Assembly (NCBI RefSeq): GCF_964186625.1
Contig: NZ_OZ075108.1
Coordinates: forward strand, 3,237,001 to 3,301,000
Source: Asticcacaulis sp. MM231
GTDB lineage: Bacteria; Pseudomonadota; Alphaproteobacteria; Caulobacterales; Caulobacteraceae
Length of the DNA stretch: 64,000 nucleotides
Reading direction: 5' to 3'
Both the position numbers and the translations under genes were made by a program. This document shows, piece after piece, positions 29 through 12,719 of this stretch (positions are counted from its first letter, which is position 1; each line of letters opens with the position of its first letter). The notes beneath the pieces are model-generated. The model saw only the letters and a list, made by a program, of their open reading frames with translations, was not told where the DNA came from and made no database searches.

Positions 29-70
29 TCGCAAGCCAAACGACGGCTATGGCCGTGCACGATCATACCT

Positions 71-167
71 CCGGAAGCCATCGGGGCTTTCGGCAAGGCC
101 AAAGGCCGCCGCGCTCTTTCCTGTTCAGGGAATGATGCGTGTAAGCCCCGCGGCATTTGAGCTTAAA
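71..167 (+). repeat. Three-hairpin intergenic repeat, copy A (before cheB)
   Basis: The element starts with a stem (CCGGAAGCC pairing with GGCTTTCGG, one G-U). A small hairpin CAAGGCCAAAGGCC follows, then a variable hairpin region, then the tail GCGGCATTTGAGCTTAAA about 3 bases before the cheB ATG. The same order of parts occurs at 5777-5896 and 12218-12296. Compensatory stem differences between copies suggest that RNA or DNA structure is conserved. Its function is unknown; it could be a leader element or a dispersed REP-like repeat. Confidence 0.6.
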
Positions 168-169
168 AG

Positions 170-1378
170 ATGTCCCTGACCTCCAACACCGCCGCATCCC
201 TGCGGCCCCTGAAAATCATGATCGTCGACAATTCCGCGGTCGTGCGGGGGCTGATCTCGCGCTGGCTTGAGCACGAGCCCGACATGGTGCTCGCGGGCCT
301 CGCTATTGACGGCGCCAAGGGCGTCGAAAAGGTCAAGGAAGTCCAGCCGGACGTGCTGATCCTCGACATCGAAATGCCGAACATGGGCGGGCTTGAAGCC
401 CTGCCGAAACTGCTCGCCGCCAAGCCCGGCCTCAAGGTTCTGATGGCCTCGACGCTGACGACGCGCGGCGCCAATGTCACCATCCGCGCCCTCGAACTGG
501 GGGCCGCCGACTATGTACCCAAGCCGGATTCAAGCCGGATCGGCGGCGCTGACGGCTTCCGTACCGAACTGCTCACCAAGATCCGCGCCCTGTGCGGCCG
601 CACACGCTCCTGGCCTATGCCAGGTGCCGCGCCAGCAAACCCGGCACCAGCCAGTCCGACGCAGGGTGCTCCCGGTGCAGGTTCCTCGACAGCCGGCCCG
701 GGTGCTCTGGCGCGCACGCCTTTATCGCCCGCACGATCCGCACCACCGCCCCCCGCCGCGCCCATCCTGCGTCCGCGCAGCACAGGCCCCAAGCGCATCG
801 ACGCCCTTTTTGTCGGCGCCTCGACCGGCGGCCCGCCCGCTCTGCGCACCTTCCTGCTGGGCCTGGGGCCCGACTGGAAGCTGCCGATCTTCATCGTGCA
901 GCACATGCCCGCCACCTTTACCGCCATCCTGGCCGAGCACCTCGATAAGGCGCTGCCGATGACGGTGCTGGAAGCCAAGGACGGCATGCCGGTCACCTCG
1001 CGCCACGTCTATATCGCCCCCGGCGACTTCCACATGACCGTCAAAGGCCCGCTCGGCCTGCCCACGATCAAGCTCGATCAGGGCCCTCAGGTCAACTGGT
1101 GCCGCCCGGCGGTCGATCCCCTGTTCCAGTCCGCCGCCGCCCTCTATGGCAATCACGCGCTCGCCGTCGTCCTGACCGGCATGGGCCATGATGGCCGTGA
1201 CGGCGCCAGCGCCCTGGTGGCCGCCAATGCCTCTGTGTTGGTGCAGGACGAAGCGTCCAGCGTCGTCTGGGGCATGCCCGGCGCCGTAGCCGAAGCCGGC
1301 CTCGCTGAAATCATTAAACCTATCGATGGCCTGTCTGCGGCCTGTAAAGTATTTGCCCGTGGAGAACGGCCCCAATGA
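170..1378 (+). CDS. cheB: Chemotaxis protein-glutamate methylesterase CheB
   Basis: This is a response regulator that, when phosphorylated by CheA, removes methyl groups from (and deamidates) methyl-accepting chemotaxis receptors in the cytoplasm. The N-terminal receiver domain spans about residues 14-135, with the acidic site at D20 (MIVDNS) and the phospho-acceptor D66 in LILDIEMP. A proline/alanine-rich linker of about 60 residues follows. The C-terminal methylesterase domain (about 212-400) shows the serine motif GASTGGP, the histidine in VQHMPATFT and the aspartate in LTGMGHDG, so the catalytic triad is intact. The 402-aa length is slightly long because of the linker. Its 3' end overlaps cheR by 4 bases (ATGA), so the two are translationally coupled. 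Confidence 0.96.
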   Translation: MSLTSNTAASLRPLKIMIVDNSAVVRGLISRWLEHEPDMVLAGLAIDGAKGVEKVKEVQPDVLILDIEMPNMGGLEALPKLLAAKPGLKVLMASTLTTRGANVTIRALELGAADYVPKPDSSRIGGADGFRTELLTKIRALCGRTRSWPMPGAAPANPAPASPTQGAPGAGSSTAGPGALARTPLSPARSAPPPPAAPILRPRSTGPKRIDALFVGASTGGPPALRTFLLGLGPDWKLPIFIVQHMPATFTAILAEHLDKALPMTVLEAKDGMPVTSRHVYIAPGDFHMTVKGPLGLPTIKLDQGPQVNWCRPAVDPLFQSAAALYGNHALAVVLTGMGHDGRDGASALVAANASVLVQDEASSVVWGMPGAVAEAGLAEIIKPIDGLSAACKVFARGERPQ

Positions 1379-5579: not shown

Positions 5580-5894
5580 CGCCCGTAGAACTATATAAAG
5601 AGCGCAACTGACTGGGGAGGGGCTTTCCTATTACGGAACTAAGGAAACATAAAGGCAGGCTCCGGCCTTGCCCACAAAATTCCCCGTGATCGCAACATTT
5701 TAAGGCGATTTAAAAAAATGGCGCGCCGCCGTGGGGCTGGCAGCGCGCCGTAGGTTCAGGGAGGACGGGTTTCATTCCGAGATGCGATGGCTTCAACGCA
5801 TCTCGGCAAGGGCAAGAGCCCGCTGCGCCCATTCTTTCAGGAAAAATGGTGCGCGTGAGCCATGGGGGACGCCCAGTCCAGCGCTTGAGCTAAA
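5580..5894. other. Gene-free stretch between arsR and the ArsC-like gene
   Basis: The 315 bases hold the likely arsR promoter close to 5580-5640, an AT-rich patch around 5695-5720, and one copy of the three-hairpin repeat at 5777-5896. No convincing coding sequence was seen; the short reading frames here have no ribosome site. Confidence 0.6.
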
Positions 5895-5896
5895 TC
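5777..5896 (+). repeat. Three-hairpin intergenic repeat, copy C
   Basis: A perfect stem CCGAGATGCG/CGCATCTCGG is followed by GGCAAGGGCAAGAGCCC, a third hairpin GCGCCCATT...AAATGGTGCGC, and the tail GCGCTTGAGCTAAA. The order of parts is the same as before cheB and fliJ. Unlike those two copies, it is not followed by a gene on its own strand: the next gene downstream runs the other way. Confidence 0.6.
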
Positions 5897-6428
5897 AAGC
5901 GGCGAAGCGTAAGGTCTCTCCGCCCATGCGTTCGAGGCGCTGCGTGATACCGGCGCTTTCCAGCATCTCGATCGGCAAATTGGCCATGGCGTCGAGGCGC
6001 GCCGCCAAGTGATTGAAAATATCGGAATAGGCGGCAGCAATGGCGCCGGACGAGCCCATCATGTCGGACGGATCGGGCATGTGCCAATCGATCATGACCG
6101 GCTGACCGAGAAACTGCGGCATACGACGCTGTCCCTCCTGACGGGTGCGGCGATCGGGCGACAGGCGGATAATGAAATCATAGCCGGGATCCTCTGCGCC
6201 GATCACGGCCGGCATCGCCTTGGCGGACAGGCGATCGGCCTGATAGTTGATCTTGTTCAGCAGCGCCAGCGCATAAGGACTGATGTCCGGCGCCGGATCG
6301 AAACCGGCCGAGCGCGCTTCAAAACGGCCGGCGCCCAGTCGGTTGAGCAGCGCCTCGGCGAGGATGGAACGCGCGGCATTATGCGCGCTAAGGAAGAGAA
6401 CGTTGAATGTGCGAAAACCTGTCGTCAT
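5895..6428 (-). CDS. LMW protein phosphatase/ArsC-like protein with Ser in place of catalytic Cys
   Basis: The fold is that of low-molecular-weight tyrosine phosphatases and thioredoxin-type arsenate reductases. The P-loop C-x5-R-S reads S14-AHNAA-R20-S21 (codon AGC instead of TGC), so the nucleophilic cysteine is missing. The general-acid region WHMPDPSD (about 115-122) is kept. From family knowledge a Cys-to-Ser change abolishes catalysis while often keeping substrate binding, so it may be a sensor or binding protein. It lies upstream of arsR-arsC on the same strand but is separated by 315 bases. The ATG at 6428 lies just before the conserved beta strand NVLFLSAHN. Confidence 0.8.
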   Translation of the reverse strand: MTTGFRTFNVLFLSAHNAARSILAEALLNRLGAGRFEARSAGFDPAPDISPYALALLNKINYQADRLSAKAMPAVIGAEDPGYDFIIRLSPDRRTRQEGQRRMPQFLGQPVMIDWHMPDPSDMMGSSGAIAAAYSDIFNHLAARLDAMANLPIEMLESAGITQRLERMGGETLRFAA

Positions 6429-8661: not shown

Positions 8662-10617
8662 TCACATACTCAAAGCCCGCAAGCCGCAGTTTTGCAGGAA
8701 CGCCCACGTCTCATCATAGAAGCTTTTGGGGCGGGTCGGATCGGCGTCATCGCCCGGGGGCACGAAGATCACCATGCCCTGCCGTGCGCGGGTCAGCAGG
8801 ACGCGATAGGCGTTTTTCAGATAGAGCCGGCGCATATCGGCACTCACCTTCTGCCACTTCGTGCCCTTGAAATTCCACGCCTGCCATTCACCATCGATAA
8901 AGCGCCAGTCGGCGTCCCAACAGATACCGGTGAAATCCAGTTCCAGACCCTGCACGTCGAATTCGCTGGCGACCTCTTCCATATAGAAGGACGAGCGCAC
9001 ATCACTGCGATCATTCAGAAACCAGTTGGGCGGATCGATCGCCGCCTTGATATAGATACCCTCCGGCCGCAAGCGCTGTGCACCCGATGACGCCACCAGA
9101 CCATAACGCTCAGACCCGCGCGCCTGATGGCGCAGCCAGGCCTTAGCGACCGCCAGATCCCGCGTCAGAAAGATGGGGTAGCTTTCGAGCTTTTCGTGCG
9201 CCTGACACGCCGCGGTCGCATCGCCGTTGAGCAGGTGAGAGATAAAGTCCGACAGGGTTTCGGCGCGGAAGGAGCGCATCGAAACACCGAGATGCAGATC
9301 CTCGTGCAGACGGACCTGCTCGGTGGCGATAAAACGCTTCGCCTCGCGGTTCAGGTCGTAATCTGGCTGGACGATCTGCGCCGAGGCATAGACCTGCCAG
9401 TGCGGGAAACGATCACGGATCGCCGCCATCCATTCGGACAAGCCCGCCTCGCCGGTATTGATTTCCTGGCCACCGCCGATCAGGCACACCACCGTGCACC
9501 AGTCGGCGTGACGATCCATGACGCTGAGCAGGAATTCCGGCTCGGACATGTCGAAATCGGCGACACCGCGTTTCGACTGCATGAACTTCGACGCCTGATG
9601 TTTCGTCCAGGCGCGCTGGGCCTCGTCAAACACCACCACATGATCAGACGGAACATCATTATTGCGAGCATAATCATCTCTGAATGTATGAATGTTTTGA
9701 ACGAAAGCATTCACCTTTCGGCTTACATTTGATTTTGTTCCCTTTTTAGGGTCGTGCTGATCACGAGTAAGCGCCTCTCTCAAAACGGCCACAAGCGGGC
9801 CGTTCCCCGATAGAAACGTGGCATGTTCATCTTTAGTTTTGTCGCTTCTCAATGTCGCAACATGAAGTCCCGCCAGTGTTTTTCCCGCACCCGGCACACC
9901 TGTGACAAAACAAACTGCTTTTCTATGTTCCAGCTTTGCCGTCGCAATAACTTGGCTAAGTTTAGTCTGTGTCCGCCCCATGTTGATTGCGCCAGCATCA
10001 TTGCGTGCAATATCTTCAACTTCATGCCGAGCAAAAAGAGCACACGAAGCTTCGATGATCGTTGGCGTTGGCCGATAACCGCTGGCCGCCCACGCGCCGG
10101 CATCGAACGGTGTCTTGTGATGAGCCGCGATCATGCGGATCACCGCGCCAAGATCGGTCACCGCCAGACAGAGGGGGGCTGCCACCTGATCGAGCGCCAG
10201 TTCCAGTTGGATATCGCGCGAGGCCGCCGCCTTCGTCGCCACCAGAATCGGCACGATCGACAGGTCATGACTGCCCTGATGGAAGTTCTTGAGATCGAGC
10301 GTGTAATCTTCCACCTGCTCGATAGCATGACGATCGAAGGTGGCGCTGCCGACCTTGAACTCGATAACGAAAATACAGTCGCCAATCACCACCACGGCAT
10401 CGGCGCGCTTGCCCATGCGCGGAATGGAAAACTCGAAATAGAGGGTAAAATCCGGTGCGTCTTTCAGGGCCCCGCGCAGGATATTGATCTGCTGCAACCA
10501 CGCGCCTTTTTGGTTCTCTTCAAGATCATGGCGATGGCGCAAGGTCAGTTCACCGATGATATGCGCATCCGTGTCACTGAAAAATTTCGGCCGCTCAGCG
10601 GTATAATAGGCGCGCAT
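8662..10617 (-). CDS. PD-(D/E)XK nuclease-like domain fused to DUF2075 helicase-like ATPase
   Basis: The 651-aa protein has two parts. Residues about 55-130 look like a PD-(D/E)XK nuclease core (D73, then E86-F-K88 in FVIEFKVG). From about 235 a DUF2075/SF1-type ATPase follows, with Walker A GVPGAGKT (240-247), Walker B VVVFDEAQ (327-334) and a C-terminal motif [17 protein letters not shown] like SF1 helicase motif VI. DUF2075 proteins occur in defence and accessory loci. The function here, DNA or RNA cleavage linked to unwinding, is inferred. The ATG at 10617 has GGGGGA just upstream. Codons for residues about 200-325 are visibly more AT-rich than the rest. It lies downstream of no other gene and ends 41 bases before parD. 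Confidence 0.85.
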
Positions 10618-10674
10618 TCCATCCCCCTGCGCATTTAGACCAGGTGCAATGCAGGCGGTCAAGTCGTGTAGAAA

Positions 10675-10758
10675 GCAAGATACCCCACCACCAACGCGCT
10701 GACGCGCTTCGGTCCCCCTCCCCGGCAAAGCCGGGTAGGTACAAGATCATTATACCTC
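10675..10758. repeat. Dispersed palindromic repeat (CCCCACCACC type), copy before fliI
   Basis: It begins with GATACCCCACCACC, has an inner GCGCTGACGCGC palindrome, then GGTCCCCCTCCCC and a small CCCGG/CCGGG hairpin, and ends near TATACCTCCC. Matching copies occur at 16820, 23043, 51455, 53790, 53920 and, in part, 54412. Confidence 0.75.
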
Positions 10759-12188: not shown

Positions 12189-12217
12189 AATCTATAGGCC
12201 ACAGTATAAAATGGGCT

Positions 12218-12296
12218 CCGAAAGCCAAGGCTTTCGGCAAGGGCAAGTGCCCGCCCGAGCTGATGCGAGGAAGCTCGCGCGGCGTTTGAGCGCAAA
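12218..12296 (+). repeat. Three-hairpin intergenic repeat, copy B (before fliJ)
   Basis: A perfect stem CCGAAAGCC/GGCTTTCGG is followed by GGGCAAGTGCCC, the hairpin CGAGCT...AGCTCG, and the tail GCGTTTGAGCGCAAA, ending 9 bases before the fliJ ATG. The AAAGGA in the tail forms the fliJ ribosome site, so the element is part of the fliJ leader within the fliI-fliJ operon. Confidence 0.65.
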
Positions 12297-12305
12297 GGAT
12301 AAATC

Positions 12306-12719
12306 ATGACCAAATGGGCAAAATCACTAATCCGTCTGTCCACCTTCGAGGTCGAAACCCTGCAAAAGCGCCTGGCCGAAGTGGTCACCCGCCGCACCCA
12401 CGCCGAAATGAAGCTGGCCACGCTCGATGCTGAATACGAGCTGGAATGTGTGCGCGCCTCGCAAGATCCGATGATGTCGCAGAGCCTGACCGCCTATAAG
12501 CGCGGGTTCCAGATGCGCCGCGAGGCCGTGGTGAGCGATCTCGACCTGATCGTGCAGGAAGAAGAAGGCGTGCGCGATTCACTCGGCATGGCCTTTGAAG
12601 ACCTCAAGAAATTCGAACACGTCGCCGAGGTGACCCACCTCAAGCGCGTCGCCAATGACAAGCGTCTGGAAGACGCGGCGCTCGACGAAGCGGCGCTGCG
12701 CATGAAGCGTCCGGCTTAA
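12306..12719 (+). CDS. fliJ: Flagellar export protein FliJ
   Basis: A 137-aa, almost entirely coiled-coil protein (heptad-rich from about 10 to 130), as expected for FliJ. FliJ is the central stalk-like partner of the FliI ATPase in flagellar export. Sequence identity in this family is always low; the call rests on length, coiled coil and position directly after fliI. The ATG at 12306 is supported by AAAGGA 7 bases upstream, within repeat copy B. Confidence 0.85.
   Translation: MTKWAKSLIRLSTFEVETLQKRLAEVVTRRTHAEMKLATLDAEYELECVRASQDPMMSQSLTAYKRGFQMRREAVVSDLDLIVQEEEGVRDSLGMAFEDLKKFEHVAEVTHLKRVANDKRLEDAALDEAALRMKRPA

Follow-up and report, generated by a model that had tools for sequence, protein, structure and literature searches.

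REPs of the CGTC super-family are short palindromic intergenic repeats present in many copies per genome in Alphaproteobacteria (Di Nocera, De Gregorio and Rocco 2013, PMC3733652). According to that account, REPs are palindromes of 20–40 bp that carry a GTAG or CGTC tag, TGTC and CCTC being frequent variants of the latter, and lie close to gene 3′ ends; those of the CGTC kind often form head-to-head dimers with heterogeneous stems, and no dedicated transposase is known for them (PMC3733652). A second source describes the CIR elements of Caulobacter and Brucella as intergenic, hairpin-rich units of about 110 bp, having two long arms and, at a loop, a site of GANTC methylation, and the MITEs (Correia/NEMIS, ERIC, RUP) as elements of which most families have terminal inverted repeats and target duplications (PMC2229807). 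The element analysed here, found in the window (the whole 64,000-nucleotide stretch of Asticcacaulis sp. MM231 DNA that was analysed), is probably a dispersed, non-coding, REP-like intergenic repeat built of four hairpins in fixed order, whose shape is kept over the sequence of its stems.

A covariance-model search confines the element, among the 73 genome matches listed, to three places within the window, all on the + strand (Table 1). Two models are cited there: R1, built from seven seeds of which copy 3 is itself one, and R2, built from 61 matches in the window genome (G000). Direct reading and the covariance model both bear out the preliminary description in that the three copies share one layout; its assignment of copies to loci has been corrected, the copy at 5777 being that of the 'ars' region and the one at 12218 that of fliJ. 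Both motility copies had been said to end within 10 bases of a start codon, which is right for cheB, where 7 bases separate the last C of the tail from the ATG, and wrong for fliJ, where 14 do, unless the A-rich end is counted. Copy 3 has the tandem G-A form of H3 described below. The stop codon of the LMWPc-family gene begins 4 bases past the tail of copy 2. The fliI-type ATPase ORF has as its neighbour a − strand ORF (window 8662–10728) in which Pfam recognises a Schlafen group 3 helicase domain (SLFN-g3_helicase, E 1.9e-81).

Table 1. Positions and hairpin composition of the three window copies, their neighbouring genes, and contigs carrying inverted pairs of the element.
Feature	Position	Strand	Layout	Basis
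Copy 1, upstream of cheB	69..162	+	CTCC, H1 (CCGGAAGCC/GGCTTTCGG), CAAG, H2 (GGCC/GGCC), long H3, H4 (GCC/GGC), tail GCATTTGAGC	cmsearch R1 39.1 bits, R2 51.4 bits; direct reading
A-rich stretch from copy 1 tail to cheB ATG (170)	163..169	+		sequence
Copy 2, flanked by two − strand genes	5775..5890	+	H1 (CCGAGATGCG/CGCATCTCGG), H2 (GGGC/GCCC), long H3, H4, tail GCGCTTGAGC	cmsearch R1 38.9 bits, R2 41.9 bits; direct reading
Copy 3, fliI-fliJ gap	12216..12291	+	H1 (CCGAAAGC/GCTTTCGG), H2 (GGGC/GCCC), H3 (CCGAGC TGAT GCGAGG), H4 (GCT/GGC), tail GCGTTTGAGC	cmsearch R1 90.7 bits, R2 80.4 bits; direct reading
cheB, neighbour outside element	170..1378	+		Pfam CheB_methylest + Response_reg
LMWPc-family (low-molecular-weight phosphatase-like) gene, neighbour	5895..6428	−		Pfam LMWPc, E 2.1e-6
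fliJ, neighbour	12306..12719	+		Pfam FliJ E 5e-5, 23.9 bits, short of the 28.4 curated cut-off; adjoins FliI-type ATPase ORF
IMG/VR contigs with inverted pairs: L509, L510, L514, L519, L531, L532, L535, L538, L543				

Read 5′ to 3′, the element comprises YTCC, hairpin H1, CAAG, hairpins H2 and H3, the AGCC..GGC hairpin H4, a GCNTGAGC tail and an A-rich stretch. Over 196 copies the consensus starts with cTCC and ends with tTGAGC, and the length, mostly 75–110 bases, has a median of 77 (range 56–119). The outer pairs of H1 are CC/GG and the rest of this stem is nearly free in sequence; H2 usually has four pairs and a loop AAGN or GACN; H3 occurs in two forms, one CCGAGC NNNT GCGAGG, which encloses two tandem G-A mismatches, the other an ordinary GC-rich stem. 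Three hairpins had been counted at the outset, and there are in fact four, the tail region containing a GCC..GGC hairpin (H4) that covaries like the others and can enclose an additional one, as in copy 2, where it is enlarged by a GGAC..GTCC hairpin. The version of the G000 copy L228 in the related genome G017 (locus L444) has about 65 extra bases in the loop of H4, in which two hairpins can be made out by eye. H4 seems to be an insertion-tolerant loop. RNA free-energy folding of four copies returns H1 in all four, H2 in three, H3 as drawn in two and H4 as drawn in none, with modest z-scores (−1.65 to −2.73), and when six strands were folded as DNA, every one formed H1 and the three + strands formed H2. 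The evidence for H3 and H4 is therefore their covariation, to which the recurrent G-A form adds in the case of H3.

Covariation is found in three sets of copies, and supports the earlier suggestion that compensatory changes reflect conservation of structure; the models were built stepwise from their own matches, so that the alignments lean towards the structure in each of the values that follow. In the 61 copies of the window genome, 18 of the 20 base pairs have changed on both sides, 91.9% of cells pair, and the covariation score of 0.454 compares with a shuffled mean of 0.118 (s.d. 0.008; reached by 0 of 500 shuffles) and with 0.029–0.056 for slid-structure controls. The score is 0.502 against 0.124 shuffled for 65 copies from other Asticcacaulis genomes, and 0.511 against 0.114 for a mixed-genera set of 61 copies, 11 of them from Asticcacaulis, in which the number of additional pair types does not exceed that of the shuffles (reached by 40 of 500). 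Covariation is seen in H2 just as in H1, and in H4 too; pairing in H3 extends to just 72–75% of cells because of the tandem G-A form. The test that had been proposed for these stems, a covariance model followed by a search for covariation, thus finds stems that covary.

It is noteworthy that wobble pairs are scarce, making up 28 of 1144 cells in the window genome, 19 of 1294 in other Asticcacaulis genomes and 8 of 1145 in the mixed-genera set. RNA families have several times more. Such scarcity is what would be predicted of a fold that acts as DNA or is needed on both strands. Over H1 (187 of 196 copies parsed, nine being left out) and H2 (175 of 196, with 21 left out), wobbles of the G-T and A-C kinds stand at 36:14, a mild lean towards the + strand of the element, to which the G-A form of H3 also points because it would be C-T on the opposite strand. 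These observations bear on the rather doubtful alternative of a selected RNA element, in which hairpins at mRNA ends, working on either strand and inherited vertically, would stabilise 3′ ends, block exonucleases or limit read-through, with spreading only incidental. Few wobbles would fit a need to pair on both strands, and the G-T:A-C ratio leans as such selection would have it, with 14:2 where both flanking genes lie on the element's strand and 7:7 where both are opposed (p=0.046). However, this is a weak test, and pure RNA selection should have reversed the ratio, which 7:7 does not show; nor is the strand-specific G-A form of H3 linked to the direction of transcription (33/56 versus 40/80, p=0.38).

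In the window genome, scoring 150 of 3556 candidates with R2 yields 67 matches at E≤1e-3, a list from which others may be missing and whose weakest members may be chance matches; the window elements are best read as three of about 65 copies of a dispersed intergenic repeat. The largest replicon (3.46 Mb) holds 65 of the 67 (49.9 expected, p=7e-7). On the smaller replicons, C2 of 0.62 Mb and C3 of 0.57 Mb, there are two of the 67 and none, respectively, far below a length-based prediction.

The search of related genomes advocated in the preliminary description returned further copies rather than none. With R1, 23 of 25 Asticcacaulis genomes have matches, from 0 to 99 each, a spread within one genus that sits poorly with vertically inherited 3′-end hairpins; G000, G017, G019 and G022 have 53–61 each. 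No match was obtained in the 174 genomes of other Caulobacteraceae, in which the best 24 candidates per genome were scored. Among 384 other alphaproteobacterial genomes, R2 matches 17, some with 9 to 12 matches among those listed; the 11 examined share the layout, and CCGAGCTTATGCGAGG and GGCGTTTGAG occur in several. A third model (R3), whose E-values are poorer than those of R2, matches six of 397 other genomes in a phylum-wide sample, all of them Alphaproteobacteria and two already among the 17. Scoring was limited to the top 150, 24 or 12 candidates of each genome, and the larger searches applied stricter filters; match numbers and presence are therefore lower bounds, and the 135 copies taken from outside the window genome are a set of high-scoring loci rather than a census.

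Two Sphingobium plasmids have a copy between their 16S rRNA and tRNA-Ile(GAT) genes (L498 1984–2075; L499 1955–2092). Lying inside the 16S–23S rRNA spacer just before tRNA-Ile(GAT), it is presumably transcribed and could affect rRNA processing, a location that would suit an element acting as RNA. When copy L220 was compared with plasmids, 11 weak matches were obtained (best E 0.2), and the two examined were both Sphingobium rRNA spacers; a blastn comparison of the same single copy with 50,697 phage records gave none. No Rfam 15 family matches the window elements, five loci searched at E≤5 or five other loci, consistent with the initial impression that this is not a described RNA family. Searches of CC-licensed literature listed no description of the element, which may nevertheless be described elsewhere, and no paper was found when stretches of H3 letters served as the query.

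Genes were called with a codon-score finder built for this analysis, so distances to genes are approximate. Only six of the 196 copies lie inside a called gene. The next downstream gene is on the element's strand for 30 of 58 copies in the window genome (p=0.90) and for 59 of 132 in other genomes (p=0.26): the direction of the element is random relative to genes. Its position is not, and stop codons crowd both of its sides. Of 77 copies that face the end of their upstream gene, 29 start within 2 bases of its stop codon, against 8.6 expected under uniform placement in the same gap, and of 101 that face the end of their downstream gene, 37 are within 5 bases of the stop (17.6 expected). No comparable crowding is seen at gene starts (5 of 109, 4.9 expected; 2 of 85, 5.3 expected). 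Crowding of stops on both sides is what hairpins selected at mRNA ends would produce.

The same figures bear on a regulatory RNA leader of motility and other genes, the preliminary description having raised such a leader as one possibility, a reading suggested by the two window copies that end shortly before the start codons of cheB and fliJ. A same-strand copy lies upstream of fliJ in only three of 25 Asticcacaulis genomes (G000, G017 and G003, that of G003 being without tail), G007 and G008 having instead a copy downstream of fliJ on the opposite strand, and a copy upstream of cheB exists in only two of the 25, G000 and G017. FliJ of G017 is identical over 137 residues, yet the entire fliI-fliJ gap differs and the copy within it has another H2 and H3. 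With agreement between element and downstream gene strand at chance level, no enrichment at gene starts, copies at gene 3′ rather than 5′ ends and no Rfam match, a leader function is rejected for the element by its direction and its non-conservation at fliJ and cheB, and we give it next to no probability. Single REP-like copies may have been recruited later as leaders at fliJ or cheB. An intrinsic terminator is also unlikely, since by eye no T-run follows the hairpins.

Random orientation with respect to genes and the concentration on the largest replicon are features that chromosome-organising sites might show, that is, hairpins or cruciforms to which a nucleoid or segregation protein binds. 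Such sites are an improbable explanation: the copies favour neither the leading nor the lagging strand, whether the terminus is put at 1.9–2.0 Mb (36 of 65, p=0.46) or at 1.75 Mb (38 of 65, p=0.21), and any system of this kind would not be essential, since two congeners and the 174 other Caulobacteraceae genomes have no match.

The fate of single copies was followed by comparison with G017, in which sites were located for 23 of the 61 window-genome copies. Seventeen keep an alignable copy, one (fliJ) has a different copy and five (L227, L233, L244, L282 and L287) are without the element, proportions that favour presence because the G017 pool consists of 800 kb of unselected sequence together with loci chosen for elements, fliJ or cheB. 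Neither a clean empty site nor a target-site duplication was seen at those five sites. At the site of the G000 copy L244, the gap in G017 (locus L474) contains a short repeat of unrelated sequence (CACAGATT-like) instead.

Between close relatives (14 pairs, with two left out), 111 of 112 H1 pairs are unchanged. Between less close species (30 orthologous pairs used, which are not independent, and four left out), 169 H1 pairs are unchanged, 52 double-changed, 5 changed via a wobble and 6 broken, so that 52 of 63 altered pairs have changed on both sides, with a mean identity of 0.70 in H1 and 0.84 in the rest; the split between H1 and the remainder is better in this test than in the paralogue and flank comparisons below. 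In the orthologues L241/L326, double changes occur in H1, H2 and H3 alike. The orthologous H1 is kept by double changes, and its shape is therefore maintained at the site over species time, as would also be the case for a selected 3′-end RNA. Resident copies are thus either useful in place, most simply as mRNA-end hairpins, or repaired as palindromes.

Repair could in principle maintain the shape without any selection, if old and inert repeats had one arm re-copied onto the other by fold-back template switching. The few wobble intermediates and the symmetric changes of H1 length between orthologues (L235/L311, L093/L085) are what such copying would leave. It is nonetheless a very improbable account of the whole, as the joints CAAG, AGCC and GCNTGAGC are conserved in sequence across genera, which arm copying cannot explain, and the short H2 and H4 (3–4 pairs) covary too.

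Comparisons among paralogues, for which H1 was split off crudely so that its lengths of 8–16 (up to 19 of 196) are suspect, give a top identity outside H1 of 0.91 among 1830 copy pairs of the window genome and of 0.96 in G021 and G022. The likeness of H1 is independent of that of the rest, paralogues that are near-alike outside H1 having unrelated H1 stems; with identity outside H1 reaching only 0.91 and H1 unrelated, there is no sign of recent jumping in the window genome. That H1 is copied from the insertion site was rejected, the longest match of H1 with its own flanks averaging 5.94 against 5.92 (s.d. 0.07) with the flanks of other copies, by the same crude split. Some copies are arranged in tandem with a unit spacing of 86–90 bases: G010 has three units with near-identical H1, G015 three of which two are near-identical, and at L248 the second copy is without a full H1. 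Inverted head-to-head pairs 0–36 bases apart occur in nine IMG/VR (viral-collection) contigs, phage or host (Table 1), and two looser inverted pairs, about 90–100 bases apart, in Asticcacaulis loci (L325 and L329).

A Y1 (RAYT-type) transposase was found neither in the window genome nor in G017, G019 and G022. Y1_Tnp is present in four of 25 Asticcacaulis genomes and in five of 12 element-bearing genomes of other genera, and elements lie near the Y1 gene at one of 15 loci examined. Downstream of the Y1 gene of G010 (L325 1501–1797 and 2223–2508) stand two opposed elements, the sole case among the 15 loci. Mobilisation by RAYT is not supported, Y1 genes not having been found in these four copy-rich genomes and lying near elements at only that one locus.

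A REP-like repeat family, the mobile alternative raised in the preliminary description, fits the random direction, the placement at stop codons, the copy number and the patchy distribution. The differences in presence between near relatives, the tandem units and inverted pairs, and the few wobbles also speak for it. Against this reading count the failure to tie a transposase to the element among the genomes searched, the want of any target-site duplication or clean empty site in the comparison with G017, the lack of signs of recent jumping in the window genome, the upkeep of shape at orthologous sites, which is not expected of dead mobile copies, and the bias towards the largest replicon, which freely moving DNA would not show. 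As a REP-like repeat, the element would spread as DNA: one strand, when single-stranded, would fold into a hairpin array, and a putative trans-acting enzyme, not detectably a RAYT, would recognise the shape together with the unpaired motifs YTCC, CAAG, the H2 loop, AGCC and GCNTGAGC. New copies would settle at gene 3′ ends as the place of least harm. Once resident, their shape might be kept because hairpins behind stop codons are useful or tolerated in either direction, for example by shielding mRNA 3′ ends, and fold-back repair of palindromes might help to preserve it. A bolder version, which we put forward tentatively as possible rather than probable, is that the element represents an undescribed alphaproteobacterial class of four-hairpin single-stranded DNA signal. 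Its H1, with hardly any sequence requirement, would be renewed through double changes as a perfect palindrome, and an enzyme guided by shape and short joint motifs, with a preference for gene 3′ ends, would carry the element from genome to genome.

Specialists would find two features unusual, a first stem almost without sequence constraint and the scarcity of wobbles. Detection of intergenic repeats commonly goes by sequence. The element is unified by its shape while part of its sequence drifts freely, so that such detection would split or miss it. With dozens of natural replicates per genome, it lends itself to three questions: whether it is as DNA or as RNA that bacterial hairpins are maintained, what brings repeats to stop codons, and how REP-like elements for which no transposase is known are mobilised.

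Integron attC sites are likewise shape-conserved, sequence-variable hairpins read as single-stranded DNA; their anatomy differs from that of the element. MITEs, as characterised in the source cited above, resemble it in being small, non-coding and dispersed, and their hallmarks, terminal inverted repeats and target-site duplication, were not seen in the flank table or at the five G017 sites. CIR elements share its intergenic, hairpin-rich and alphaproteobacterial character. An identity with CIR was rejected, given that eight of 196 copies contain GANTC, with 8 occurrences where shuffling predicts 54, and that none of the 174 Caulobacteraceae genomes outside the genus matched, Caulobacter presumably being included among them. 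The closest resemblance is to REPs. Unlike the 20–40 bp REP palindrome, the element has a median length of 77 and four covarying helices, it begins with YTCC and ends with GCNTGAGC instead of carrying a GTAG or CGTC end tag, and its H1 is almost free in sequence within the outer CC/GG; unlike GTAG REPs, it does not as a rule flank a RAYT gene (one of 15 Y1 loci). Like REPs, however, it is intergenic and multi-copy, lies beside gene 3′ ends and has heterogeneous stems, and, like those of the CGTC kind, it is not tied to a transposase. The inverted pairs in the IMG/VR contigs look like REP dimers, those noticed in Asticcacaulis loci being looser.
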